Source of the DNA: Vishniacozyma victoriae
Taxonomy: Eukaryota > Basidiomycota > Tremellomycetes > Tremellales > Bulleribasidiaceae
Reading direction: 5' to 3'
Assembly (NCBI GenBank): GCA_017654735.1
Contig: JADPYG010000088.1
Location: 3,658,001-3,722,000 of the forward strand
DNA: 64,000 nt
This document shows positions 7,316 to 64,000 of the stretch, one piece after another (position 1 is the stretch's first letter; each line of letters starts with the position of its first letter). Made by a program: the position numbers and the translations under genes. Below the pieces are notes generated by a model. It was not told the DNA's origin and did no database searches. It saw only the letters and a program-made list of their open reading frames with translations.

Positions 7316-8399
7316 TTACAGGTAACCCGATAGTCTCTCCAACTGGCTCTGCGGAATCGGAGTATAGGTCGCAGTGTCGCCGTTGATGATCTCGATGTAT
7401 TGATTGGACGTATTTGGGCCGAGTTTCAACAGCAATATCCGCAGAGCGCACCAGTCTGCGTGCTCCTCCCCAACCTGGAACCCACCATTGTCATGCGACC
7501 ACTGATCCAAGGAGAACAGGTTCGACAGTAACATTATCGGACTCGCTTCTAAATGCGCGTCCTTGTCTCTCACGTCGATTGGAGCTGCTCTGTTCATCTT
7601 TGTGATCGCACTCTTCGTTAGGGCCTTTCGCAGCCGAGGACTCTCATCGAATTTCTCGGCGACCGTTTTTGGAAGATTGTGGTCGGCAAGCGCTATCAAT
7701 GTCTCCAGCCGAGACGCATACTGTCGATATCAGCATCAAACGGGCATCACATGTGGTTTCACATACAAAACAAACCGGAGTAAAGCGTTCGATCTCGCAG
7801 AGATCCGTAGCCAGCAATCCCAAGATTCCCAACATTGACTTCGGTCGCACCTCCTGATATCTATGCAAAGACGCCATCTGCGATGGTCAGAGAAGCTCCT
7901 AACGGGCACTGAGTGACGTACTCGAGCGAGTATGAGCTGATTGGCAGTTTCAGCATCCCTGGCGACCGCTGCCTCAACTTCCTGGGCCTTCTGCGCAGTT
8001 TCTTGCAATGATCGCTCCAGTAAGAGACTCGTTCGAACCAAGTCCTCAGTCGCTTTATTCAGGGCCTTGAGCGCCGTGTTCAGATCACTTCTTAGAGTGT
8101 CGTTTTCGGATTTCATTTCCTAAGCTGTCAGCTTGTTGCCAAGAGTGCGAGACTACCGGACTGACCTTATTCTCTCTTACAGCTTGAGCTGCAGTCCGAT
8201 TCACCAGAACATCTATGCATGAGATATCGGCATCTTGAGGAAAAATTGCGACGTCTTCCGGCAGTGTACTCGGCGAGAGGTGGGGCAAGATGCGCAGCGT
8301 AATCGACCGATGATCGGCTGGGGTTGACGGTAGTTCCATGCGAAGGCTTGCCCCTTGAATGGCGCATACAGTAGAGGTTGGGTACGAGACTATCTTCAT
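7316..8399 (-). CDS. Family member A: uncharacterised protein, paralog of B
   Basis: Exons 8399-8166, 8119-7922, 7877-7776 and 7720-7316 give about 312 residues. The third donor could instead be the GTATGT nine bases further on, which adds three residues. I do not recognise a named domain. The N-terminal block contains ILPHLSPSTLPEDVAIFP and a VLVNRTAAQAVRENK segment. Next comes a predicted coiled coil in exon 2, with heptad-like Leu/Ala spacing and many Glu/Lys. Then a conserved KSMLGILGLLATD block and a C-terminal helical block (RDKDAHLEASPI, VGEEHADWCALRILLLKLG). The whole organisation, including phase-0 introns at the same places, is repeated in the gene at 20214-21421. It is convergent with MSD1 and downstream of PEX5 on the same strand. 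Function unknown. Confidence 0.75.
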
Positions 8400-8620: not shown

Positions 8621-10980
8621 TTAGAAGTTGAAGCCCGCTCGATGAAACTCATCCAGGTCAGCCCCTGGATTGGCCTTAGCGGCAAGCCCGTCCATATCCT
8701 ATCCTATCAGCGTCATATCCAACGGAGCCGAAGCGATGACTCGCCATGGCAACTAGTGCCCGCCGGAGGGTTGACCAGATAGACATTGAATCCGCGATGT
8801 TTGCATTCGGTTCTGCATGCTTGGAGTGCATGGAAAGAGCCGCCAGGACTGGTTGTCAACCGTTGGACGAGTGAGGATCAGCAAACGCACAATGTTCCGC
8901 CGCTTCTCTGTGAACACCAATATTCAGACCTACCAGATCAGCTTGGAAATCAATTGTATCACAGTGAAACAAAGCTTACAAGCGACACCGAGGTTGAAGA
9001 TCGCTCTTGTGAACGTTGGTTTCAACTCTAACGCTTTTCGATACGCATCAACAGCTTCTTCGGGATTACCTCCATTTGCCAGCGTCGCACCCAATCGATT
9101 CCAGAGTAGGTAGTCCTATCAGTCAACTACCCGCTTTGGTACTTAAAAATGGGGACTCACATCAGGCCTTTCGCCAAGAGCCGCAACCCAGCATTTCCTA
9201 GCCTCCTCATATTCGCCCATCATGTAATAAGCTGTCCCCAAGCCGACTTGGACATCTGGGTCAACTTCTCCTCTGGACGTATATTGTGCCCTGGCGAGGT
9301 CTAAGAATGAGCTGGTAAGAGTTTGATGTAGGGCCCAAGGGGATTCAGATTCAGTCATTTGGGTTCGGGTGGGTGCTGGGCCTGCGTGCTGAGGGTGTGA
9401 GGTCGTGAGGAATTGATGGAGAGTCGTGAGGGCCGCGAGGTCTTCTGACTCATTCACGTAGGATATGGCAAGGTTCTATCCGTCAACGCCGTCCGTACAC
9501 CCTGCTTCGGAGGTGGACTCACGGTCAACATTTCTCCAGCGATATTCGCACCTCCATGTCCAGCTTCCAAAGCTTTCCGACCCGCTTCAAATGCCGCCAA
9601 AGCCTTGTCTTCCTTTTCGTTCATAGCATGAACCCTTCCAAGGAGAGACCAAGCTTCAACATCGCTAACCGGCATCTGAGATTGGGATTCCAGTGTAGCC
9701 CTTCCCCGGCGTAGGTAATTTTCCAGATGGTAGGTGACATCTGTAAGTGACCCGCCAGTTGCTAGTAGCTCGTTCGCTTGTTGCCATGAGTCTGAGGGCG
9801 CGAGATCGTTGAGCGGGTTCTGTTGCGCTAGATCGTCAGCTTCAGCTCACTTTCCGGGACGAGCGTGACTTACACCAATCATATTGTCGATTGATGGGAA
9901 TCCCGTTCTCCGGCAACATTTCTCTCGACTTCCACTCGTTAAATTCCCTCTGAATCTGAGCATTCATCGCTTCCTCCTTGGGTGTACCACCATGTAGTCG
10001 GTCCTGGTAATCTTGCGATGGAGCGAAATGGTTCAGATCAAGTTGATCATCGAGGTCGTTCTGCCCGTCATCTCGATGCAGAGAATCATTGAGAGTCTCA
10101 AATAGGTCGTCTTCGTCATTAGTAAACTGATATTAGCTCGACTCTGGAAAATGCTGTCTTGACTGACCTGTGAAAAGTCCTTCTCCCACTCTGCGAGTTT
10201 ATTCAGTCGTTCCGCCTCGGGCTTCAGACTCTCCCAGACTGCATCCAGATCACCTTTCGTCTCCCTCGTTTCTTCTGCCTGGGCTTCTGGCTCTGCTGAC
10301 TTCGTATCCGCCGTGGTCTCGGTACGAGTCTGAGCCCTAGCGTCTTCCAGAGCCTGCTCGAAGGCGGCTTCCATCTTCTCCTGCTCTGCTCGATCCATTT
10401 GCCTTGTGGCTCCACCTTGTTGCTGGATTTGACCTTGATACATTGGCTGGAAATTTGAATGCCCCATTCCCATTCCCATCCCCATTCCCATGCCCATGCC
10501 CATATTCATCTGGGGCATAGGCTGATACTCCATCCTAGCCTCGGAGGTCATAGGCGGCGGACTAGCCATCCGACCTTTCCCTTTCGTATCGTATCCCTCT
10601 GCCCAGTTCTCCCTGGGTCCAGACCATTGTTGATACTCCGAGCTGAAAGCTGAATTTGCTGGTACCGGTGAACCTTGTCGACCTGCTCTAGCCCAATCTT
10701 CCGAGAAATCTCGCTGAGCAGGGTGGGATAGTGCCGCTGACAAGTGGGAGAGGTTGAAAGGTTGAGGGGGATGCTGGTATTGTTGATTCGATTGCTGTTG
10801 AGCGTGCTGTGGTGTGGGCTTGTATGAACTGGATCCCTGGCCTACTTGACGGTCCTAATCATCAGCTCTTGATGGTTTGGATTGACATACCTGGAACAAA
10901 CTTCTGTCTATGCCTTCCCTGTTTCCAAGCTGGTTCAGCGGATTCGCTGTCCCCTTTCCATTTGCAAAGAAGTTGCTCAT
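8621..10980 (-). CDS. PEX5: Peroxisomal PTS1 receptor PEX5
   Basis: Nine exons (10980-10891, 10854-10168, 10126-9874, 9827-9523, 9475-9161, 9115-8980, 8929-8891, 8848-8745, 8698-8621) give 668 residues. PEX5 binds C-terminal PTS1 signals in the cytosol and docks at the peroxisome membrane. The N-terminal half is disordered, Gln/Met rich and holds WxxxF/Y-type motifs ([36 protein letters not shown]). The C-terminal half is a TPR array, clearest at [40 protein letters not shown] and [20 protein letters not shown]. The C-terminal helices end [12 protein letters not shown]...EFHRAGFNF. The usual N-terminal cysteine of PEX5 (near residues 6-11) is absent; the start reads [18 protein letters not shown]. 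The last intron appears to be GC-AG (GCGAGT donor). Confidence 0.92.
10463..10509. repeat. Met-Gly codon microsatellite in PEX5
   Basis: A 6-bp repeat (CCCATT/CCCATG on the plus strand) encodes a run of about eight Met-Gly pairs in the disordered part of PEX5. It is low complexity and likely length-variable between strains. Confidence 0.8.
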
Positions 10981-13830: not shown

Positions 13831-16773
13831 CTAGTCCTGCTTTGTCTTGTCGGACCCTGGCTGGGTGGATCTATCTGGTATTGACTCCGCCAAAGCATCA
13901 ATCTTGGCGAACTGGTGATCGAACTTTGCTGGGTAGAGGAAAGGCCTCATGTCGAATCCTATTTGTCAGCCTCTTCTATTGTGGACTTGCGGGATCACTG
14001 ACGATTGTCATCTGGACTATATGACTCCTGTGATGTCAGCGTTCTGTCTTTGTACTGACTCTTGGACTTACCATATGGACTGATGGAGTGATCGTCGTCC
14101 TATCGCTGTCAGCTGATCGCACTGTATTGTAGAAGCTTACATCTTGTGTCGATTGATAGCATGAGTAAAGAAGAAGTGTTTAACTTTCTCCGCAATCTAC
14201 TGGCTCAGCTCTTGCCGTAGCCTGGATACCCGAGCCGACTCACCTGTAGAGGCGACAAGAAAGTCCCCCACTCCTGGATCAATTTCCCAAACATACTATA
14301 CGGACCACATTTCTCGACTTTTCGTAATCGCCCATAAATCGAGAGCTCATCGTACGTCATTCCCATTTCCACCTCATCCGACTGGACGGCTTTGTCTTCG
14401 CCAATCGGGATAAGCTCAGCTGAGGGGATCGCATCTAAGAAACTGGTTGTTAGCTTTGTGTCTCCGCATCGAGGTCGTTGAGTTACCTTTCCAGAATCGG
14501 CAAGTCGAAGGAGGTTTGAGCGTAGGCTATGAAACGCTTGAGATCGGTTTTAGAGATTCCACCAATTGGGTTCAAGTCTGCACTTGAACAACTGGAAGCT
14601 CAGCTTATTCCAGACTTCCTAGCGACCATGCTACTTACTCGTATTTCGTGAGATAGCCTCGAAGACTCTCGTCGACATTGGCACTTCCCAATACCAATAG
14701 TCCGCCAACCTTTCCTCGTGCCCAGGGTAGTAATTGAGCAAACATGTATCCTACGACCATTCGCAGACGAGCCTGTAAGTCAGCTTGGCCAGACAGATCG
14801 CTGCAACTAGCTTGCCTGGATATTCTGTAGAGCTAGATTCTCCGCGTTAGAACCACCGTGAACCTTGAATTGAGGCGATTTTCCGGTTACGAAGCTGAAG
14901 ATCCCTTTGACGGCAGATACTGCGGTGTCCATGTTGAGGTCCACATGGTAGCTGAACGTCAGCTGTGCTCAGTAACATTCGACTCACGCTCCGATACTCT
15001 CTGCGAGATCTTTGGCTCGCTTTCGAGTCTCAGGTGACGAGTTCTCGGTACCCATGTAACAAGTATGGAAGATCCTGTTGGCGAATTCCTTGGGATCTGT
15101 AGGGAGGTACTCGGAGTGTTCTGGTTCTCCAGTCATACGTCTTGCATCGGCGATGACTTGTCCATCTAATGGTCAGCCGAGGGTTCAAGGAATCCCAGAA
15201 GCGACTAGCTCACCTCCTTTGTCAGCTGCTTCTGCGACGAGCCGACACATGGAGTGAACGATCACTGCTGTCGCACACGAATCGATACCACCACTGAGGG
15301 GCAGGAAATAACCCTGGATTCTCGATCGACGCAAGTAATCCCATAGCCAACAAGCTGGGCCAAGCCTGGTTATCAGTCTAGATAAACGGAACACCTGGGG
15401 CACTCACGCAATTTCCTCTTCAGGGGTGTGATACCTCACTTCAGTCTGGCCAACCTTTGTCTCCACTTCTCCTGGTCTAATTCCATGGCCTCCATCGAGA
15501 CGCATGTCCACTCTGATTCGCTCATAAGCCTCTGATTGAGCACTTTGCATACGACGACTTGAACCCATTCGCTGTGCTCGAACAGCTTCCAGGTCGATCG
15601 TGGCCGTGACAACTTCTACTTCTGAGAGGGAGAATTGGGATCCTTGGGCTAGAATCTGACCGTTCAGTGCGATGAGACAGGCTCCATCGTAGTACAGTCT
15701 ATCCCCGTCACAACCTTGTTGGTTTGCGTAGAGATAGATTCCGCCGAGCTGGATATCAGCTATAGCTCGAAAAATGCATCCACGACGATAGCCCACCTTT
15801 TGTGTGGCCTCCTTCATGAGATCTATCCTCCTGTTCAATTTTCGGAGCTCGTGGTGACTTGCCGAAGAGTTGGTGAAGATCTCAACTCCGTCTAGTCCCA
15901 TTTGGATGTGTGGACTGATATCAGCTGATCCGTCGACATTGGGATCTAACTCACGAGTTTGGGGTGAAGAGCTCTTCACAAAGCTCGACTCCGATGACGG
16001 TATCTTCTGTGGCGACTACTGCATCTCCGAAGGGGACAGTGGTCTGCATTTCAGCTCATCTCAAGGTCCATTCAGCCCTGGACTATAGCTCACCTGTCCA
16101 GTGACTTTCCGGATCATGCCAGGTAGAGAATGCTCTTCTGTCTCCTTATATTTCATCCAAGGAGTGAAATGCCTTAATTCTCTCTACGAAATCAGTAGGA
16201 CCTTCCATTATTGTGAAGATGACTCACATAGTTCCCGTCATTGGCCATCCACATCTTGGGCCTGATGAGGATAATTTTGCCATTGTAGATGATCACTCGG
16301 CAATTGTAAGGTACGTTCTTGTGTAGGATGGGCCTGATCTCGTCAGCTCGTGACGGCCATAGGTAGCCCCAACTCACATTCCAATATCACAGATGATACC
16401 TTGCGCTTCCTCGCTCTGAAGGATCTTGGCCAAGACCTCCCATGAGTGCAATACTGTATCGCCTTCTAGAAAATGATCCAGACAGCCATATCCTGGAATC
16501 TCAAGCTCGGGACCGACTCGAAGTGATGCGCCTCGCTCTTTGGCGATAGCTATAGATTTGAGGATCCTCTCATAGTTGCCCTGAGATTGTCAGAGTGATC
16601 ATGGGTATGTGAAGAGAGTACCTACAGTAAAGTCTAGAGCCCATTGATGAAGCTGGCTGGGACTGTTAGCTGGGCCTTATGTACACGCTATTAGCAGCTT
16701 ACCATCTAGGATATCAGCTTTGATACTCTTGGATGATATAGACTACTTACGTAGCTACAGTAATGAGGTGCAT
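13831..16773 (-). CDS. QNS1: Glutamine-dependent NAD+ synthetase
   Basis: Nineteen exons sum to 714 residues, the same length as yeast Qns1: 16773-16751, 16705-16703, 16656-16626, 16580-16378, 16333-16228, 16183-16094, 16043-15955, 15914-15797, 15748-15408, 15365-15214, 15165-14988, 14951-14816, 14772-14639, 14591-14487, 14442-14244, 14196-14141, 14099-14072, 14027-14003, 13958-13831. It makes NAD from nicotinic acid adenine dinucleotide, ATP and glutamine. The N-terminal nitrilase-type glutaminase shows the Glu ([10 protein letters not shown]), Lys ([10 protein letters not shown]) and Cys (GVELCEELF) catalytic triad. The C-terminal synthetase shows the pyrophosphate loop [13 protein letters not shown] and [20 protein letters not shown]. 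Exon 2 is only three bases. The intron after exon 12 is GC-AG. Confidence 0.93.
16703..16705 (-). other. QNS1: Three-nucleotide microexon of QNS1
   Basis: ATG lies between a perfect upstream acceptor (GCTGATATCCTAG) and a perfect donor (GTAAGC) whose own intron has GCTAAC...CAG. Including it makes the N-terminus [18 protein letters not shown], which matches the family's invariant ATC-x-LNQWALDF in both length and cysteine. Skipping it deletes exactly the Cys codon and keeps frame. Confidence 0.7.
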
Positions 16774-20213: not shown

Positions 20214-21421
20214 TTACAAGAACTTAGCAAAGCGTTCTTCTTGACCCGCCGCCAATGGGCAATATTTGAGAGGATCAGATTTAATCTCCTCCAAATACTG
20301 CTTCGCCTTGGAATTACCCAATCTAGCTAACATCAGACGTAGAGCAGCGAGCTCTGCCCCCTCTTCCCCTGGCAGAAACATTCCGCTCTCATGTGCGCTC
20401 TGTTCTAACTCCAATAGGGTCGACAATAACGGGATCGGCGTATTTTCCATATGAGCGTCATTGTCTCGTGCCGCCACCGATGCCGCCGAATCTATCTTAG
20501 CGATGGCGTTTTTGTTGAAGTATTTGCTGATGTCCGGATGATCTGAGATTTCGTTGGCAAGTGTTTCCGGGAATTTGCCAGGATGATCTAAAAGTCCTGT
20601 GAGTTTCGTGCCGTACTGAATCAGTCAGTAAAGAGGAGCCACAGCACAGCAGAACGGACATACCGATCCGGCTGGAACCCAAGTCCCACTCTTACACCAA
20701 TCCCTCGCGAGCCAACCTAAGATGCCCAGCATCGCCTTAGGTTTCAGTAGTCTAGACCGATGTAAGCGGTCTGACTATTGGGATCAGCTCAGGTGCGGTC
20801 GGATGCAAAGTGCTCAGTCAAGAGGCTTATGTGAGGATCACAGTGGACATGCGTCTAGATGGAGGACATGGAATCAGGCCAGGAGAGATCGAGACTGAAC
20901 TGAACTTACCTTTAACACTCCGAGCTCAAGTCTGGTATCCCTCAGATCGGTCGTAGCCGTAGTCAATGCAACTAATTCAGTCGCATGCAAAGCGTTGGTT
21001 TTTTGCAATTCGACTCGTACCGACTTCAATTCTTGCAACATTTCCTGAAACGTCAGTCGACATGGATCATGTGGCTATACGACAAGGACTGGAATCGTGA
21101 ACAACGATGATGGTGCAGAATGATGGGGGGTGATTGGGGTTCATGAAGGTTGGTGTCTGTTGTACTCACCTTGTTCGTGCGCAACAACTCCGAAGCGTAT
21201 GGGTTGATGAAGACATCGATCTCCATTGCAGTGGACTGCGTTGAGGTGGAACGAGGAAAGATCGCCACGGCTTCCGGATCGGTGTCTGTTGGCAGATGGG
21301 GTAGAAGATGATGTCGCATTGCTTGGATGTTGTCGGGGTTGGCGACTGACATGGTTACGCTTGAAGAAGGCTGATTTAGGTGACAGGTAACCTCCTCTTT
21401 GTTGGGTGTAATGAACTTCAT
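20214..21421 (-). CDS. Family member B: uncharacterised protein, paralog of A
   Basis: Exons 21421-21170, 21044-20910, 20774-20664 and 20615-20214 give 299 residues. It aligns with gene A over all four exons and with the same phase-0 intron positions: LLPHL...AVAIFP and LLRTNK in exon 1, a coiled-coil-like exon 2, LHRSRLLKPKAMLGILGWLA in exon 3, and RDNDAHMENTPIPLLSTLLE with GEEGAELAALRLMLARLG in exon 4. No named domain is recognised. Introns 1 (125 nt) and 2 (135 nt) are nearly three times longer than in gene A (46 and 44 nt) because they hold sequence resembling the MET6 3' flank and a QNS1 exon. Transcribed toward the polo kinase and located downstream of CCT3 on the same strand. Confidence 0.75.
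20802..20890 (+). pseudogene. QNS1 exon fragment inside intron 2 of gene B
   Basis: This interval matches the sense strand of QNS1 positions 15551-15463 at about 76 of 89 bases with one inserted base. One frame reads [19 protein letters not shown] against QNS1 [19 protein letters not shown]. It lies wholly within the 135-nt intron of gene B and is antisense to that gene. About half of the codon differences are synonymous. Confidence 0.85.
21068..21162. repeat. MET6 3'-flank-like segment inside intron 1 of gene B
   Basis: Positions 21068-21127 match 55973-56032 at about 52 of 60 bases, starting with an identical CATGTGGCTATA. Positions 21145-21162 match 56057-56074 at 16 of 18. The two blocks are collinear with a 7-bp length difference between them. 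The 559xx-560xx copy lies just downstream of the MET6 stop codon, in its likely 3' UTR, and has the same orientation relative to transcription. Confidence 0.75.
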
Positions 21422-41809: not shown

Positions 41810-41897
41810 TCTCTTGTAGCTCAGTGGTAGAGCATTGTGCTTATGAGGTTACGCGTTGGCATCGCAATGGTCGGCAGTTCAAACCTGTCCTGGAGAA
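41810..41897 (+). tRNA. tRNA-Ile (anticodon UAU) with intron
   Basis: The cloverleaf can be folded. Acceptor TCTCTTG pairs with CTGGAGA (one T-T mismatch, one G-T). D-arm GCTC/GAGC encloses AGTGGTA. Anticodon stem TTGTG pairs with CGCAA. T-arm GGCAG/CTGTC encloses TTCAAAC. The anticodon loop reads C-T-TAT-G with TAT at 41842-41844, then about 16 extra bases (41846-41861) at the canonical 37/38 intron site. A box (TAGCTCAGTGGT) and B box (AGTTCAAACCT) promoters are present. A T5 terminator follows at 41901-41905. Confidence 0.78.
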
Positions 41898-55518: not shown

Positions 55519-56093
55519 GTTGTCTGTCGCGCTTTCCAATGATGTCGGCGCTAAGCTATATGCCGGCGCTGGTGATCAATGTTCGAGGTTCTCGACTATC
55601 GTATTATCCGCTACGACATGACAGCCTAAGGGAGGATCCTTCTTGGCGGGCGATGTATGAAGTAGTGAGTAGGAAGAAAGAGAAATCAGTCGGGTCAATG
55701 TCATTTCAACATTATTGATCGACGCGTCGATTCACGAACTTGATTTGGGAGAACCCCTTGACCAGCAAACTATGTGAATCATTGCATCACAAGTATATGT
55801 ATCAGTATCAAGAGGCTGTCGATACGAAGAATCTATTGGTAAGTAGCGAGAGACTGCAGAGATAGGTAGTGCCGGTTGAACAGACTGCATTTCTGTTTTT
55901 TTTGTGTATTTAAATCTATATAACAACTACTAACTTTTCGAGCTTTGAAACTCTCTTTTTTCTTAACAAAAGCATGTGGCTATATAACAATGAATGGACT
56001 CGAGAACAATGATGATGGTGAAGAATGATGGGTTATGATGAATGAAGAAGGAGGTGGAAGGTTGATGGCTGTTGAAGCAGTGACACCAGGTGT
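55519..56093. other. Intergenic region between MET6 stop and RAD57 start
   Basis: 575 bp. The right part is the MET6 3' flank, with T-runs at 55898-55907 and 55951-55962 and the segment 55973-56074 that reappears inside intron 1 of gene B. The left part is the RAD57-like promoter. No gene is seen. Confidence 0.5.
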
Positions 56094-58600
56094 TTAAGCG
56101 TAGGTCTCACGGGCCCATCGGGCAGCGGCGACAAGGTTGGTGAGGGACTCCTCGGTCTCCTTCCATCCTCGGGTCTTGAGACCACAATCGGGGTTGACGA
56201 TGAGGAGGTCGGCGGGGAGAACCTTGGCCATGGCGGCGATTCGGTCCTTGATCTCCTGCTCTCCGGGAACTCGGGGAGAGTGGATGTCGTAGACACCGGG
56301 ACCGATCTCGTTAGAGTAGCCGTGCGACTTGAAGACGTCGAGGAGCTTGAGGTCGGCCTTGGAGGCTTCGATCGAGATGACGTCGGCATCGAGTCGCTGG
56401 ATGGAGGGGAAGATGTCTCCAAAGTCGGAGTAACAGAAGTGAGAGTGGACTTGGGTCTCATCGGCGACACCGGAGGTCGACAATCGGAAAGAGTCGACGG
56501 CCCAGGTGAGGTAGTTGTCCCAGTCGGCCTTTCGGAGGGGAAGACCCTCTCGGATAGCGGGCTCATCGACCTGGATAGCCTTGATACCGGCGTTGGCAAG
56601 GTCGACAACCTCGTCTCGGAGAGCAAGGGCGAGCTGCTTGGACTGGACCTCCTTGGAGACATCGGCTCGGGGGAAAGACCAGTTGAGGATGGTAACGGGA
56701 CCAGTCAACATACCCTTCATGGGCTTGTCAGAGATCTTCTGGGCGTAAGAAGACCATCGGACAGTCATGGGGGTAGGTCGGGAGACGTCGGAGACAACGA
56801 TGGGGGGTCGAACGTATCGGGATCCGTAAGACTGGACCCAACCAAGCTGGGTGAAGATGAATCCGGTCAACTGTTCACCGAAGTACTGAACCATGTCGTT
56901 TCGCTCGGGTTCACCGTGGACAAAGAGGTCAAGTCCGACCTTCTTCTGGAAGTCGACAGCGTACTGGATCTCGGCCTCCATAGCCTTCTCGTACCTGTTT
57001 GTCAGTAGTTGAAACAGTTTAGATTGTATAGTGACTTACTCCTCCTTGGAGATGTCACCCTTGGTGAACTTGGATCGGGCAACTCGGATCTCCTTGGTCT
57101 GGGGGAAAGAACCGATGGTGGTGGTGGGGAACTTGGGGAGGTTGAGGTGCTTCTTCTGGGCCTCTCGTCGGGTAGCGAAGGGGGACTTTCGCTCGAGGTC
57201 CTTCTCGGTGATACCGGCAACTCGGTCTCGGACAGCAGAGTCGGAAGATCGCTCAAACTCTCGTCGGGCAGCGATATCCTTGGTGTTTTGGGCAAAGTAT
57301 TCTCCCTCCTCACCGTTCAAGGCCTTGGCAAGAGCGGCGACTTCCTCGCACTTTTCAGTGGCGAAAGACAACCAGCTGACTTGCTCAGCGGTAAGCTTGG
57401 TCTCGACCTTGATCGAGATGGGAGTGTGGAGTAGGGAAGAAGAGGTAGAGACATCGACTCGGTCGGCTCCGAGGGCAGAGACAGCCTTCTCGACAAGGGC
57501 CTTGGAAGCCTTGAGGTCGTTCTTCCAGATGTTTCGTCCGGAAACGACACCGAGCTCGAGGTGGATCTTGGTGTCCTTGATGGCGGCGACGACAGCTTCG
57601 ACCTGCTCGGGTTCTCGGTTGACATCGAGGTGGAGACCGTAGATGGGGAGGTCCTTGATGAACTCGATAGACTTGCCAACTCGACCGTAAGCGGTGGTGA
57701 TGGTGATCTTGGGGGAAACGGGGGCGAGGGCCTCGTAGACCTTCTTGAACTCGGCACCCATGGACTCGGCCTTGTCTAGGACAAGGATGGGCTCATCGAT
57801 CTGGACGTTCTCGACACCAGCCTCCTTCAACTGAGAAAGGAGCTCCTTGTAGACAGGGAGAAGAGAGTCGAGGAGCTGGATGGGCTCGAAGTCGGCGGGA
57901 GCATCTCGGCTCTTTCGGACAAGGGAAAGGTAGGTGATGGGACCGAAAAGGACAGGTCGGGTAGTGATACCGGCGGCCTTGGCCTCCTTGTATTCCTCAA
58001 GCTGCTGGTTGAAGGTGAGCTTGAAGGTCTGGTTGGCAGAGTGGTCGACCTTGACAATGTGGTAGTTGGAGTCGAAGCTAGCTGTCAGCTAGGCCCTAGG
58101 AAATGAAGGGTATAGAGCTTACAATTTACCCATCTCGGAGGCAACGACATCGATACCCTTCTCTCGGTCCTGTCGACCTCGACCCATGGCAAAGTAGGTG
58201 TCAAGGGGAGAGAGCTTCTGGGACTCGTATCGCTCGGGAATGACACCAAAGTTGTAAGAGTGATCAAGGAGGTGGTCGTAGAGGGTGAAATCACCGCTGG
58301 TCGATTAGCTTTTTGTTCGACAAGAGGTCAAAGCGTAGATAGACATACGAAGGGATGATGTCAACACCAGCGTTCTTCATGGCGTCCCATCGCTGCTTTC
58401 GGACAGTCTTGGAGGTCTCTTTGAGCTCCTCCTCAGAAGCCTTACCGTTCCAGTAGGACTCGATAACCTGTCGATCAGTATTTTGTTTCTAGCACGTTCG
58501 TTTCTCGATGGAAACAAGTGGGGGAAGAAGTAGGACTGACCTTCTTCATGGCTCGGTTTTCACCGATTCTTGGGAAACCTAGGACAGCAGATTGAACCAT
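56094..58600 (-). CDS. MET6: Cobalamin-independent methionine synthase
   Basis: Exons 58600-58541, 58467-58349, 58296-58123, 58077-57040 and 56994-56094 give 763 residues. MET6 transfers the methyl group of polyglutamyl 5-methyl-THF to homocysteine. Signatures are [20 protein letters not shown] at the N-terminus, [46 protein letters not shown] (zinc ligands His and Cys), SIEASKAD (Glu) and [11 protein letters not shown] (final Cys). Codon use is strongly biased (GTC, CTC, AAG, GAG), as expected for a highly expressed gene. This creates long meaningless antisense frames. Confidence 0.96.
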
Positions 58601-58954: not shown

Positions 58955-61900
58955 CTAGAAGAAAGAATCCATATTGAACTCCATAGCACCCTGCGTAACA
59001 TCCTGTTTCAACTCCTTCATCAAGTTACCCATCTTCTTTGGTTTTTCCTCAACCTCCTGAGGTTCGGTCTTGACGGGATCCTCTTCCACCTTCTCAACGA
59101 CAACAGGGGGTGGAGAAGATACCGTAGAGACCGGCTCGGACTCGACTAGGACATCCATGTCCATATCCATGATCATACTCTCGTGCCTGTTGTGGCTGTT
59201 TGATAACATGAATGAAGGTCTCCTTTGGCGGACAGGGGAGAATTGAGGATTCTGAGCCTTTTGTTTCTGAGGGAAAAAAGGTCGCTCGAAAGACCAGTTC
59301 CGCAATAGATCGAGGGCGAGAGAATGGCATCCTGATCGTCAGCTGGCAATATGAGTATCATGCTGTATTACTTGCCCATCCGGAAGAATACCCTAGCGTT
59401 GTGTAGGACGAAATCGAATTCGAGCTTGGACGGGATCTCGCTTGCTCCTTTTGCAGTCTGCATCGACTTCGGTTTGAGGTATTGGAACAGAAGCAGTAGA
59501 CTCGGATCATCATTCTCCGAGATACCGACTGGGAGCTTGGACGAAGGCGACCAGGAGAGTGCGACGGTAGAAAGTGGTGACTATCATCAGCTGAATTTCA
59601 CTCATCAAGCAAGCTGGGACATACAATCAACACCCTCACTGCCAGATCCCTCCTGCCCAGAGTCCAGAAAGCCCAACTGGCAAGCCATCGATGTCCGCCC
59701 TCAAATGCCATAGGTACAACCCGATCCATTAGGATCCACTTGAGTAGCGGACCGTTACTATCGGGCTCAATGGCTTTAGCAAGTGCGACAGCAAGCTGCC
59801 AATCGCCCATCTGCCTCAGGCAAACGCTAATAGCATCTCGAGGTTGATTAGCCAGCATGAAGAATGCCGCTGCGTATTCTGATCATCAGTATACTTTCTC
59901 GTTTCATCGGACAGGACATACCATAACGATTCTTGGATAGCAAGGCATAAGCGTTCTTGAGAGCTGCAGTCTTCCATCGATCCTGGGTGAAATCGTTGGC
60001 CAGGAATTTCAGCATCATATTCTGTTCCTTGTGTCCTGGAGCTTGTCGCCATAGACCATGAACGACCTTCTTCTTGCCCAAGGCGAAAAAGATAAGGGAG
60101 CAGGAAGTAGGATCTCGGTCTTCTTGAGTCATGAATGTATTTCGAGCCACTACTTCCAGTTGACCCCTCTGCAAGATCAGCGTGATATCAGCCCATGAAT
60201 CGACCAGGTGGGCGTACAATGACTTCTGGCGACTTGAGCCATAGGAACACACCCAAAGCTTTTGCTTCTTTCCACATCATCTTTCCGTCCAGGCAATACT
60301 TTGTCGAGGCAGTAAGTAGCATATCTTGCGATTCGCTATGAGATGCCCAAACGATATTCCGGAAAGACAAGCGGTGTTGATGCGTGATAGTATCGGCAGG
60401 TCTTGCCTTGGTGTCGTGACGGCGGAAATGGCTTGCTAGTAGCTCCACTGATATCAAGTATCGTAAACCACATAGATCAAGGGCACGCCGCTGCTGTTCG
60501 ACCTTTATGTCAGTGAGTACCCTGGGCGTCAAAGTTAGGCTTACCTCGTGAGTTCCCTCGATTACCGTGATCAAGAGCGCCTTCTCGTGAGACGACAGCG
60601 GTAGTCGTACTGGTCCATCCAGCCTTCGTATCAGGTCATTTACGATTCGGTCATTAAATTCGTCATCATCACTGCGAATCAGCTCAGTCCCGATCCGTCT
60701 CGCGAAGGCACTTACTCGATAACAGGTCCGGCATCAAACAGTCCGTCGTATTTTCGTGTCTTCTAGTCACGTCAGATTCCGCTCTTCTTGAAGTTCGCTT
60801 ACGGATTTGGGACTATTCGCAACATTCGTTGTGGTCTTGACGAATTCAAACGGATCAAATCGCTTGAATACCAAGTTCTTCTTGCCCTCGTCCTCACAGT
60901 CCTTCAGGCTTCGATGTAATTCGAGCAAGACACATTTGACGAGATCAACCTTATCTATCACGATCAGCTTCATTTCCTCGTATAACAAGATACTCACCCC
61001 AAATAAGACATTGAGCGAGGACAGTCGGGTGATAATCCAAAAGGGGTCCATTATGCCATGCGATAAGTTGAAACAAATCCTCTGGACCTTCTGGATCGAG
61101 AACCACACTTTTCGCTGATGCCGAAGGCGACGGAGCGGGTGTTGTGCGGTCCAAGAATCGGGAAAAGAGGTAGATCTGGTTGCCTGCTCCAATCGCGAGT
61201 GATCCGCCTGCTAACCATATCGAGTCATTGATTGGAGCAGAGGTATACCTGATTGTTAGCTCTGCAATCGCGGGGAAGGGCTGACTTTTCAAGATTGATT
61301 GTAATGAATGGTGCCCAGCCTGGGGTCTTTTCGGTATATGACATCCGCTGTTCGCATACTAGTACTGCCTCATGCGAAAAGCCGACTGCCAAGACGGATT
61401 GCAGATCGGAGGTCGTCGTCCAGTCGAGATCTTGTACTGGTCCACTCCCACTGGTCGTCAGCCTCATCATCACCAGGCGGTAGTAGAGGACACACTCGAA
61501 ATAATGAGTCAGTTCCAGACCTGTAGAAAACTCGCTAACGTTCGAATCCCAGATCGTAGCTTCTTGTCTCCCATCCGACATTTCCGAGACTGTTCATCAG
61601 CTCATGTTGTAAAAGTGTTGTAGCACTCACTCAGTACAGTCTTTTTCCTAGAACTGCACCTGGCCATGACAATATTCGTTCGTCCAGTATCAACGAAGCC
61701 GCTCCTCACCCAAGCTTCCCCATCCACACCATTCACCCTTTGTCCTTTCGTCGCATTATCCTGCACGGCTAGATGCTGGCCCAGTCGAGGTTGCCAGTGA
61801 ACCACACTTTTCGCTGATGCCGAAGGCGACGGAGCGGGTGTTGTGCGGTCCAAGAATCGGGAAAAGAGGTAGATCTGGTTGCCTGCTCCAATCGCGAGTG

Positions 61901-64000
61901 ATCCGCCTGCTAACCATATCGAGTCATTGATTGGAGCAGAGGTATACCTGATTGTTAGCTCTGCAATCGCGGGGAAGGGCTGACTTTTCAAGATTGATTG
62001 TAATGAATGGTGCCCAGCCTGGGGTCTTTTCGGTATATGACATCCGCTGTTCGCATACTAGTACTGCCTCATGCGAAAAGCCGACTGCCAAGACGGATTG
62101 CAGATCGGAGGTCGTCGTCCAGTCGAGATCTTGTACTGGTCCACTCCCACTGGTCGTCAGCCTCATCATCACCAGGCGGTAGTAGAGGACACACTCGAAA
62201 TAATGAGTCAGTTCCAGACCTGTAGAAAACTCGCTAACGTTCGAATCCCAGATCGTAGCTTCTTGTCTCCCATCCGACATTTCCGAGACTGTTCATCAGC
62301 TCATGTTGTAAAAGTGTTGTAGCACTCACTCAGTACAGTCTTTTTCCTAGAACTGCACCTGGCCATGACAATATTCGTTCGTCCAGTATCAACGAAGCCG
62401 CTCCTCACCCAAGCTTCCCCATCCACACCATTCACCCTTTGTCCTTTCGTCGCATTATCCTGCACGGCTAGATGCTGGCCCAGTCGAGGTTGCCAGTATT
62501 CCAATACCCCAGCCTTTGAAATAGTGAGCACCATGTCTTGAAGCGGAGTATCAGTCTTCCAATCAATCACGGAAGTATGCCATCCCATCGGATCAACAGG
62601 TAGCACAAGAGCAGGCAACGATCCCCCTTGAATCGGTAGGCGATAATTATGGAGTAATTGAATGTCCGGCTTGTCGTTGTCCATCTCGTTGGTAGTAGAG
62701 GTGACGCGCCAACACCATGCCTGACCGGATCTCGTGACTGCCATGACGACCGCGCTCTGCGTGCGACGCCCTTTGCGACTGATTCCATCATCGATATCCG
62801 AAACAGCCAACAACATCGCAACATCATCATCATCCTCCATCTGGAATCCAGGCATAGGCACCGGTTCAGTCGGTTGCGAAGATCCGGGATCAAGATGTTG
62901 TATGGTGATTTGAGGACCTTGTTCGTCCCTGGTGAAGAAGACGATAGCGCGACCTTTGGCAAAGATAGCGGAATGTAGGGATGTGCTCGACATGTTCCAA
63001 TGTCCTTTTCCAGCGAGTGATTTCGGTGCTTCCTTGCCATTGACAGGAATGTCCCCTTTTTCTTTAGACCATACTGCAATCTCTCCATTTTCGCATATTG
63101 CCAGTAAACCTCGACCATTCGGAGTACGAACAAAGTGTGACAAAGGATTGTTGAGCTGAACGGATGTCGTTTCTTCGTGATTGACGAGGTTCTCTATTGT
63201 TGTGAGACCGGAGGGTTGGCCTGAAATGAGGTCGGTGAGGGATATACGATATCCCTCTATCCGGTCTGAAGAGGAGAATGCCAGTAGTGAGGATGATGTG
63301 GGTGAGTGGAGAAGCTGAGAACGGGGTGACCATGATACCTTGAGCGTATCGGGGATTCGTATACGGGCAATAGGCAGTGATTTGATCAAAGTAGGTGGTT
63401 TTCGATCAAGGTTCTGCCCATTAGCATCCATTAATCCTGCAAGAGTTGACCTACCACGATACTCCGCAGCGCCAGATTCCCCTGATTGTCCAGATACATC
63501 AACACATCACTCTCTTCACTCGCCAGCCCCTCCAATATCTTCCGGGTCATAGCGGAAGGCTTTGCCTTGCCATCATTTGCCCCACTAATCTCATCCAATA
63601 GACCAGCTCGGAGGACTTCAGCGTCCAGAGCCCATAGCCAGCCTTGTCGTCCTGCTGTGTACTTGTCTTTGCCTTTTCCAGTGAGCGGTATGGTAGGTTT
63701 CGCAAATGCCCGGTGGTCGATTGACGAGACGAGTTGGAACCATGTTGGATCGTCTAGGACTGGTGAGTATATTCGAAAGACGGTATCGGATGTGATGGTA
63801 TAGAGGACTGCATCTCCCCTAATGCTCAGTATGAGTCGAGCGTAGATGAAGGGGTACGTACGAGGATGAAACGCTCTTCCTCCATCCGATCCAATCGATT
63901 TCACGTGGATGCCTGAGTTCTTGCGGCATTCCAATCGCTTCTCCTTTCCTATTGACACCCAAAACATGGACCGACCGGGCTCCCTGCATGTCAGCTCATG
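58955..64000 (-). CDS. RAV1: RAVE complex subunit RAV1, 5' end outside window
   Basis: Exons 63983-63862, 63818-63455, 63412-62330, 62288-61985, 61947-61631, 61589-61286 and 61248-60998 are followed by several more short exons to a stop at 58957-58955. RAV1 (DmX/Rabconnectin-like) reassembles V-ATPase V1 with V0. The WD40 propeller part includes GDAVLYTITSDTVFRIYSPV and DDPTWFQLVSSIDHRAF. The Rav1 core has INDSIWLAGGSLAIGAGNQI, FVKTTTNVANSP, DLCGLRYLISVELLASHFRR and YALLSKNRYEYAAAFFMLA. The C-terminus MEFNMDSFF is family typical. A perfect in-frame tandem duplication (61100-62497) repeats 207 residues; without it the protein matches the normal family order. Confidence 0.9.
61100..61798. repeat. 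699-bp tandem repeat, copy 1 (within RAV1)
   Basis: Identical as far as can be read to 61799-62497, including both introns and the same translated frames on both strands. The left junction shares only a G and the right junction shares none, so no flanking repeat explains it. The unit carries 621 coding bases plus introns of 41 and 37 nt. Confidence 0.95.
61799..62497. repeat. 699-bp tandem repeat, copy 2 (within RAV1)
   Basis: Second copy, directly adjacent and in the same orientation. The junction at 61798/61799 fuses the end of one coding block (ASAKSVV) to the start of the other (HWQPRLGQH) within one exon, in frame and without a stop. Confidence 0.95.

Follow-up and report, generated by a model that had tools for sequence, protein, structure and literature searches.

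Probable templated insertions resembling nearby QNS1 and MET6 DNA in two adjacent introns of an orphan gene of Vishniacozyma victoriae

Most knowledge of short templated insertions comes from induced breaks and from tumors. Those described at yeast and human breaks are about 50 to 300 bp long and derive from local or distant donors, sometimes from two (PMC11724301). Introns can also be tied to small-RNA silencing, as in the intron-coupled RNAi (SCANR) described in Cryptococcus neoformans (PMC5851062). Here, we describe what appears to be an old, natural case of templated insertion, with both donors identified, in the genome of the basidiomycete Vishniacozyma victoriae. We consider it probable that both long introns of one predicted orphan gene, termed gene B, are old introns extended by templated insertions from nearby loci that were copied during break repair; that the templates had themselves diverged from the resident genes is a part of this reading that we hold less surely. 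Among the titles and abstract openings listed in searches of the open-licence literature, none describes the arrangement of two such inserts.

The DNA analyzed, referred to as the window, is a 64,000-nt stretch of assembly GCA_017654735.1 (contig JADPYG010000088.1, positions 3,658,001-3,722,000 of the forward strand), and its features are given in its own coordinates. The assembly comprises 11.58 Mb in 17 contigs, and the window lies on a contig of 5.39 Mb; a tRNA (41810-41897) is the sole Rfam match in the window at the gathering threshold. Gene B (20214-21352, minus strand) has a predicted spliced model of four exons (21170-21352, 20910-21044, 20664-20774, and 20214-20615) that together encode an orphan protein of 276 amino acids, followed by a stop codon. 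Its paralog gene A (7316-8399, minus strand; start codon tentative) has 41% identity to B, and a second paralog, gene C (C11:3740704-3741693, L016), has 32% identity. The three constitute a small orphan-protein family, all of whose members lie within 77 kb of one another; weak further matches, D and E (E values of 0.0017 and 0.03), occur on C11 near 988 kb and on C1 near 781 kb. Used as a single query, gene B yielded no homolog in the protein search, and a search with the alignment of A, B, and C, which scored the 7993 candidates that had the most words in common, yielded one metagenome protein, P0121, which is 175 amino acids long and has 50% identity to B and 40% to A. No Pfam family was found for either gene B or P0121, and, judging from these searches, public proteins appear to include almost no homologs of the family.

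Intron 2 of gene B (20775-20909, minus strand) is 135 nt long and runs from GTAAGT to CAATAG. Most of it resembles an exon of QNS1, the gene for glutamine-dependent NAD+ synthetase, which we named by its homologs: in the protein search, an approximate QNS1 query has its top match in Tremella mesenterica (85% identity), other Tremellomycetes come next, and no close relative is among the proteins listed. By BLASTN, the captured piece (20798-20895, plus strand) aligns with 15555-15459 on the opposite strand, with identity in 84 of 98 columns, a single 1-nt gap, and an E value of 2.4e-27, and in a gapped alignment it spans intron columns 15-121 (107 nt). Its source (15459-15562, minus strand) lies within a single exon, between the introns at 15366-15407 and 15749-15796. 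Because the minus strand carries both gene B and QNS1 and the insert is inverted, and hence antisense to gene B, the pre-mRNA of B would be antisense to QNS1 mRNA over this stretch. An earlier, sequence-only reading of the window had placed this intron, had claimed an 89-nt antisense match to QNS1 at roughly 85%, and had noted that gene A has only 44 nt at the same intron; all of this held on closer analysis, the match being real and slightly longer than claimed, the ends of the intron being GT..AG, and the 44-nt intron of gene A lying at 7878-7921. An own-genome DNA search with intron 2 gave, among the matches listed, only the intron itself and the QNS1 exon. An exact 14-base match, TCAGTCAAGAGGCT, is shared by an exon of gene C (C11:3741034-3741047, L016) and the intron 2 insert, including the base that the insert has added relative to QNS1; this sequence occurs twice on the plus strand of the 264-kb stretch described below, and the shared match is probably due to chance.

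Intron 1 (21045-21169, minus strand; 125 nt, from GTGAGT to TTTCAG) carries a second captured piece, which is absent from the sequence-only reading. This piece (21068-21162, minus strand) resembles the 3'UTR, so assigned by its position past the stop codon, of the methionine synthase gene MET6 (identified by Pfam PF01717, with an E value of 4e-132, and by TIGR01371), and it is sense to both gene B and MET6. Its ungapped core (21068-21127) is identical at 52 of 60 positions to the DNA directly past the MET6 stop, with an E value of 3e-13 within the window. With gaps allowed, the alignment extends over intron columns 8-102 and has 78 matching bases, 14 mismatching bases, and 4 gap events totaling 13 bases (i.e., gaps aside, mismatches at 14 of 92 aligned bases); its local score is 103, whereas none of 500 dinucleotide-preserving shuffles scored above 53. 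The source (55973-56074, minus strand) lies 20-121 nt beyond the MET6 stop codon (56094-56096). The MET6 donor is 35 kb from gene B and in the same orientation, and the QNS1 donor is 5 kb away and inverted, all on one contig. When intron 1 or the MET6 3'UTR was the query, the intron 1/MET6 match was absent from the matches listed in own-genome DNA searches; since a 60-bp match was missed, the sensitivity of that search is limited.

The lengths of the introns in and around gene B point to an enlargement of introns that already existed. Intron 3 of gene B (20616-20663, minus strand) is of normal size at 48 nt. The introns of gene A are 46 nt at the place of B intron 1, 44 nt at that of intron 2, and 46 nt for the third, and those of gene C are 44, 45 or 48, and 52 nt. 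For QNS1, guidance by T. mesenterica yields a model with one 3-nt exon and 15 introns of 36-50 nt, and guidance by P0009 yields one that omits this exon and has 14 introns, one of them 94 nt long. We prefer the T. mesenterica-guided model because, with the putative 3-nt exon (16703-16705, flanked by introns of 45 and 46 nt), the protein regains the ATCQ found in T. mesenterica; the annotations of several relatives lack that residue. At 125 and 135 nt, introns 1 and 2 of gene B exceed every comparison intron on either QNS1 model (36-52 nt, with the one of 94 nt); going by the P0009-guided model, introns near 100 nt may exist in this genome. The positions of the long introns are not new, and intron gain was rejected as an explanation: genes A and C carry introns at places matching those of gene B, so existing introns of B would have been enlarged and none newly made. 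The comparison for an ancestral state without inserts covers these two paralogs, whose introns are short, and P0121, which is partial and begins after intron 2.

Copied pieces of this kind look rare in this part of the genome, with only two such pairs listed in 264 kb. In a self-BLAST of that stretch (the window plus 100 kb on each side, with the low-complexity filter on and counting only pairs with both members inside), the two gene B inserts form the sole listed dispersed pairs of at least 50 bp and at least 80% identity. The remaining pairs listed are an exact 699-bp tandem, matches of 127 bp at 72%, 60 bp at 77%, 48 bp at 81%, and 32 bp of low complexity, tandem repeats near 220 kb (72-75%), and repeats of 66-76% identity at 44-46 kb of the stretch, which one of two comparisons listed and the other left out. 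A long minus-strand reading frame (62301-63431) ends in the 699-bp tandem (61100-61798 and 61799-62497), which represents either a recent duplication or an assembly error. A whole-genome DNA search with window positions 1-40000 as the query, which covered 40 of the 64 kb and is insensitive to matches like that of intron 1 to MET6, listed only the pair formed by intron 2 and QNS1 and one 41-bp match. This last match (10463-10503 to C15:212882-212922, 93%) falls in a repetitive stretch. Neighboring introns of a single gene, B, hold both pieces, and the donors of the pieces are on the same contig, 5 and 35 kb off.

On the reading that we find probable, breaks or stalled forks in gene B would have been mended with short pieces copied from DNA close by or by template switching, perhaps in a single complex event with two templates; two separate events are also possible. 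A single two-template event is attractive because exon 2, which separates the inserts, is only 135 nt long. The two donor genes, each with an open reading frame, stand intact elsewhere in the genome, as expected of templated insertion, and the aligned lengths of 95 nt (intron 1) and 107 nt (intron 2) agree with the tens to a few hundred bases that such insertions span. The aligned part starts 7 nt after the 5' splice junction and stops 23 nt before the 3' junction in intron 1, and it starts 14 nt after and stops 14 nt before these junctions in intron 2, such that the splice signals of both introns lie outside the aligned parts; the branch site, going by the consensus, presumably falls in the final 14-23 nt of the introns. 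The inserts would have been tolerated because, as we infer, they are spliced out, and they need no regulatory function and probably have none. A point against templated insertion is that two inserts arising in one gene through unrelated accidents would be an awkward coincidence.

The identity of the templates is less certain than the mode of insertion. The 97 bases of the QNS1 insert contain 13 substitutions, 9 of which are at third positions, and of the 11 changed codons, 8 are synonymous and 3 change the amino acid, a higher synonymous share than the "about half" claimed in the sequence-only reading. Four residues of the resident QNS1 are kept in the insert (S of QSE, M of VDM, H of GGH, and P of RPG), and they occur at these sites in 3, 1, 0, and 1 of 15 aligned relatives, respectively; they thus point to a donor from this lineage or a close sister. 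In simulations, whose outcomes depend on the assumed omega and kappa and on a single 97-base record, an insert that was neutral since the split and evolved at an equal rate showed three or fewer amino-acid-changing codons at a P of 0.001-0.005 and nine or more third-position changes at a P of 0.03-0.04. For the former count, separate runs gave 0.002, 0.001-0.005 across three settings, and 0.002-0.003. Under the same count of amino acid changes, P is 0.02-0.05 when half of the source branch is coding, 0.08-0.25 when three quarters of it is, and 0.33-0.89 when it is wholly coding; an intron evolving 4 times slower than QNS1 is marginal (P of 0.05-0.07), and one evolving 10 to 20 times slower fits (P of 0.20-0.57). 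Because 3 of 11 would be a rare outcome for a neutral copy with the same age and rate, divergence of the QNS1 donor may have taken place in a sister lineage or haplotype in which it still coded, and to this extent the simulations favor, short of proof, the earlier proposal that the source diverged while still coding. The lost paralog that was proposed as one such source was not found: own-genome protein searches listed only QNS1 and the gene B intron with one QNS1 exon as the query and no second copy with the last 299 residues of MET6, which also leads us to reject a still-present paralog as donor, with the proviso that the assembly may be incomplete. The insert also bears marks of decay as noncoding DNA, namely, one inserted nucleotide and the replacement of a mostly conserved glutamate by valine, and the low divergence between intron 1 and the MET6 3'UTR (14 of 92) is compatible with a short time spent within the intron.

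The same templated insertions could instead have been copied from the resident QNS1 and MET6, all differences arising later as the introns drifted neutrally and the sources drifted at synonymous or UTR positions. This account needs no lost donor, own-genome searches list neither source a second time, and if half of the changes should fall at third positions, 9 of 13 is not an extreme excess (binomial P of 0.13). With equal rates, however, it must accommodate the low probability of so few amino-acid-changing codons given above (0.001-0.005), and we view it as possible but doubtful. We lean instead, though less surely than on the insertions themselves, to templates from a diverged version of the region, either another haplotype or a sister lineage that took part in a past cross. 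We put forward only tentatively the fuller version of this idea, in which the two introns are fossils of a lost or foreign version of a 40-kb stretch, repair in a cross of diverged lineages having copied the other parent's QNS1 and MET6 into gene B. Yet another path to the same pattern would be the later replacement of the resident QNS1 and MET6, which would leave the introns as fossils of a vanished allele.

Other explanations dispense with templated repair or assign the inserts a role. Intron 2 might act as an antisense regulator, its pre-mRNA or lariat pairing with QNS1 transcripts and feeding small-RNA silencing as stalled Cryptococcus introns do. The strand is correct for this; the predicted duplex between intron 2 and QNS1 (-158.3 kcal/mol) is far more stable than those of 100 single-base shuffles (mean of -64.2, minimum of -83.3); the pairing includes a 24-column stretch with a single mismatch; and the genome has Piwi (190.6 bits) and RdRP (120 and 108.2 bits) domains, identified as domain matches. 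These domains are at C11:4264243-4264860 and C6:126319-127993, with more Piwi matches on C3, and they suggest that the fungus carries at least part of an RNAi pathway, such that an action of RNAi on QNS1 via intron 2 is possible in principle. However, the longest perfect run of pairing is 15 nt, and a G-U wobble pair is kept at only 2 of the 13 differences and thus gives no sign that pairing has been preserved; moreover, the MET6 insert in intron 1 is sense, which antisense regulation does not predict. We consider such a regulator very unlikely, and only a little less so a copying of both pieces from mRNA by reverse transcription rather than from DNA, although each piece would lie within a mature mRNA (the one in a QNS1 exon, the other directly past the MET6 stop codon). 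Neither contains an exon junction and no poly(A) is seen, observations compatible with either kind of template, but mRNA copying would not favor donors that are both at most 35 kb away in an assembly of 11.58 Mb. Delivery of both pieces by a mobile element or a Helitron-like carrier strikes us as the most improbable of all: Helitrons in fungi do pick up gene fragments (PMC4289320), but the donors here are two different genes, the pieces fill most of introns of 125-135 nt and leave little room for element ends, and own-genome searches, within their limited sensitivity, list no further copy of either piece. On the same searches, with the same limit, a repeat origin of the inserts was rejected.

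If templated insertion is correct, the case illustrates one way in which very short fungal introns can lengthen while the gene is kept. The QNS1 insert additionally holds a reading-frame record that bears on the evolution of the donor both before and after copying, and if that donor was a sister lineage, pieces preserved in introns could reveal past gene flow or old hybridization that is otherwise traceless.

Among described processes, intron gain by break repair is similar in that foreign DNA is turned into intron sequence, but no new intron has arisen in gene B, and the indirect evidence put forward for that process consists mostly of similarity to mitochondrial DNA. The SCANR system of Cryptococcus (PMC5851062) is likewise comparable in that the fungi are related, introns are involved, and Piwi and RdRP domains are present; as described there, however, it targets inefficiently spliced, transposon-type transcripts. 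The insertions described from yeast and human break assays (PMC11724301) differ from those in gene B in that the event here is old, took place in a wild fungal genome, and involves two introns 135 nt apart whose copies are 14-15% diverged, the mechanism being inferred. Several features are common to both settings: the inserted pieces are about 100 nt long, the donor is intact and local, and two donors are possible.
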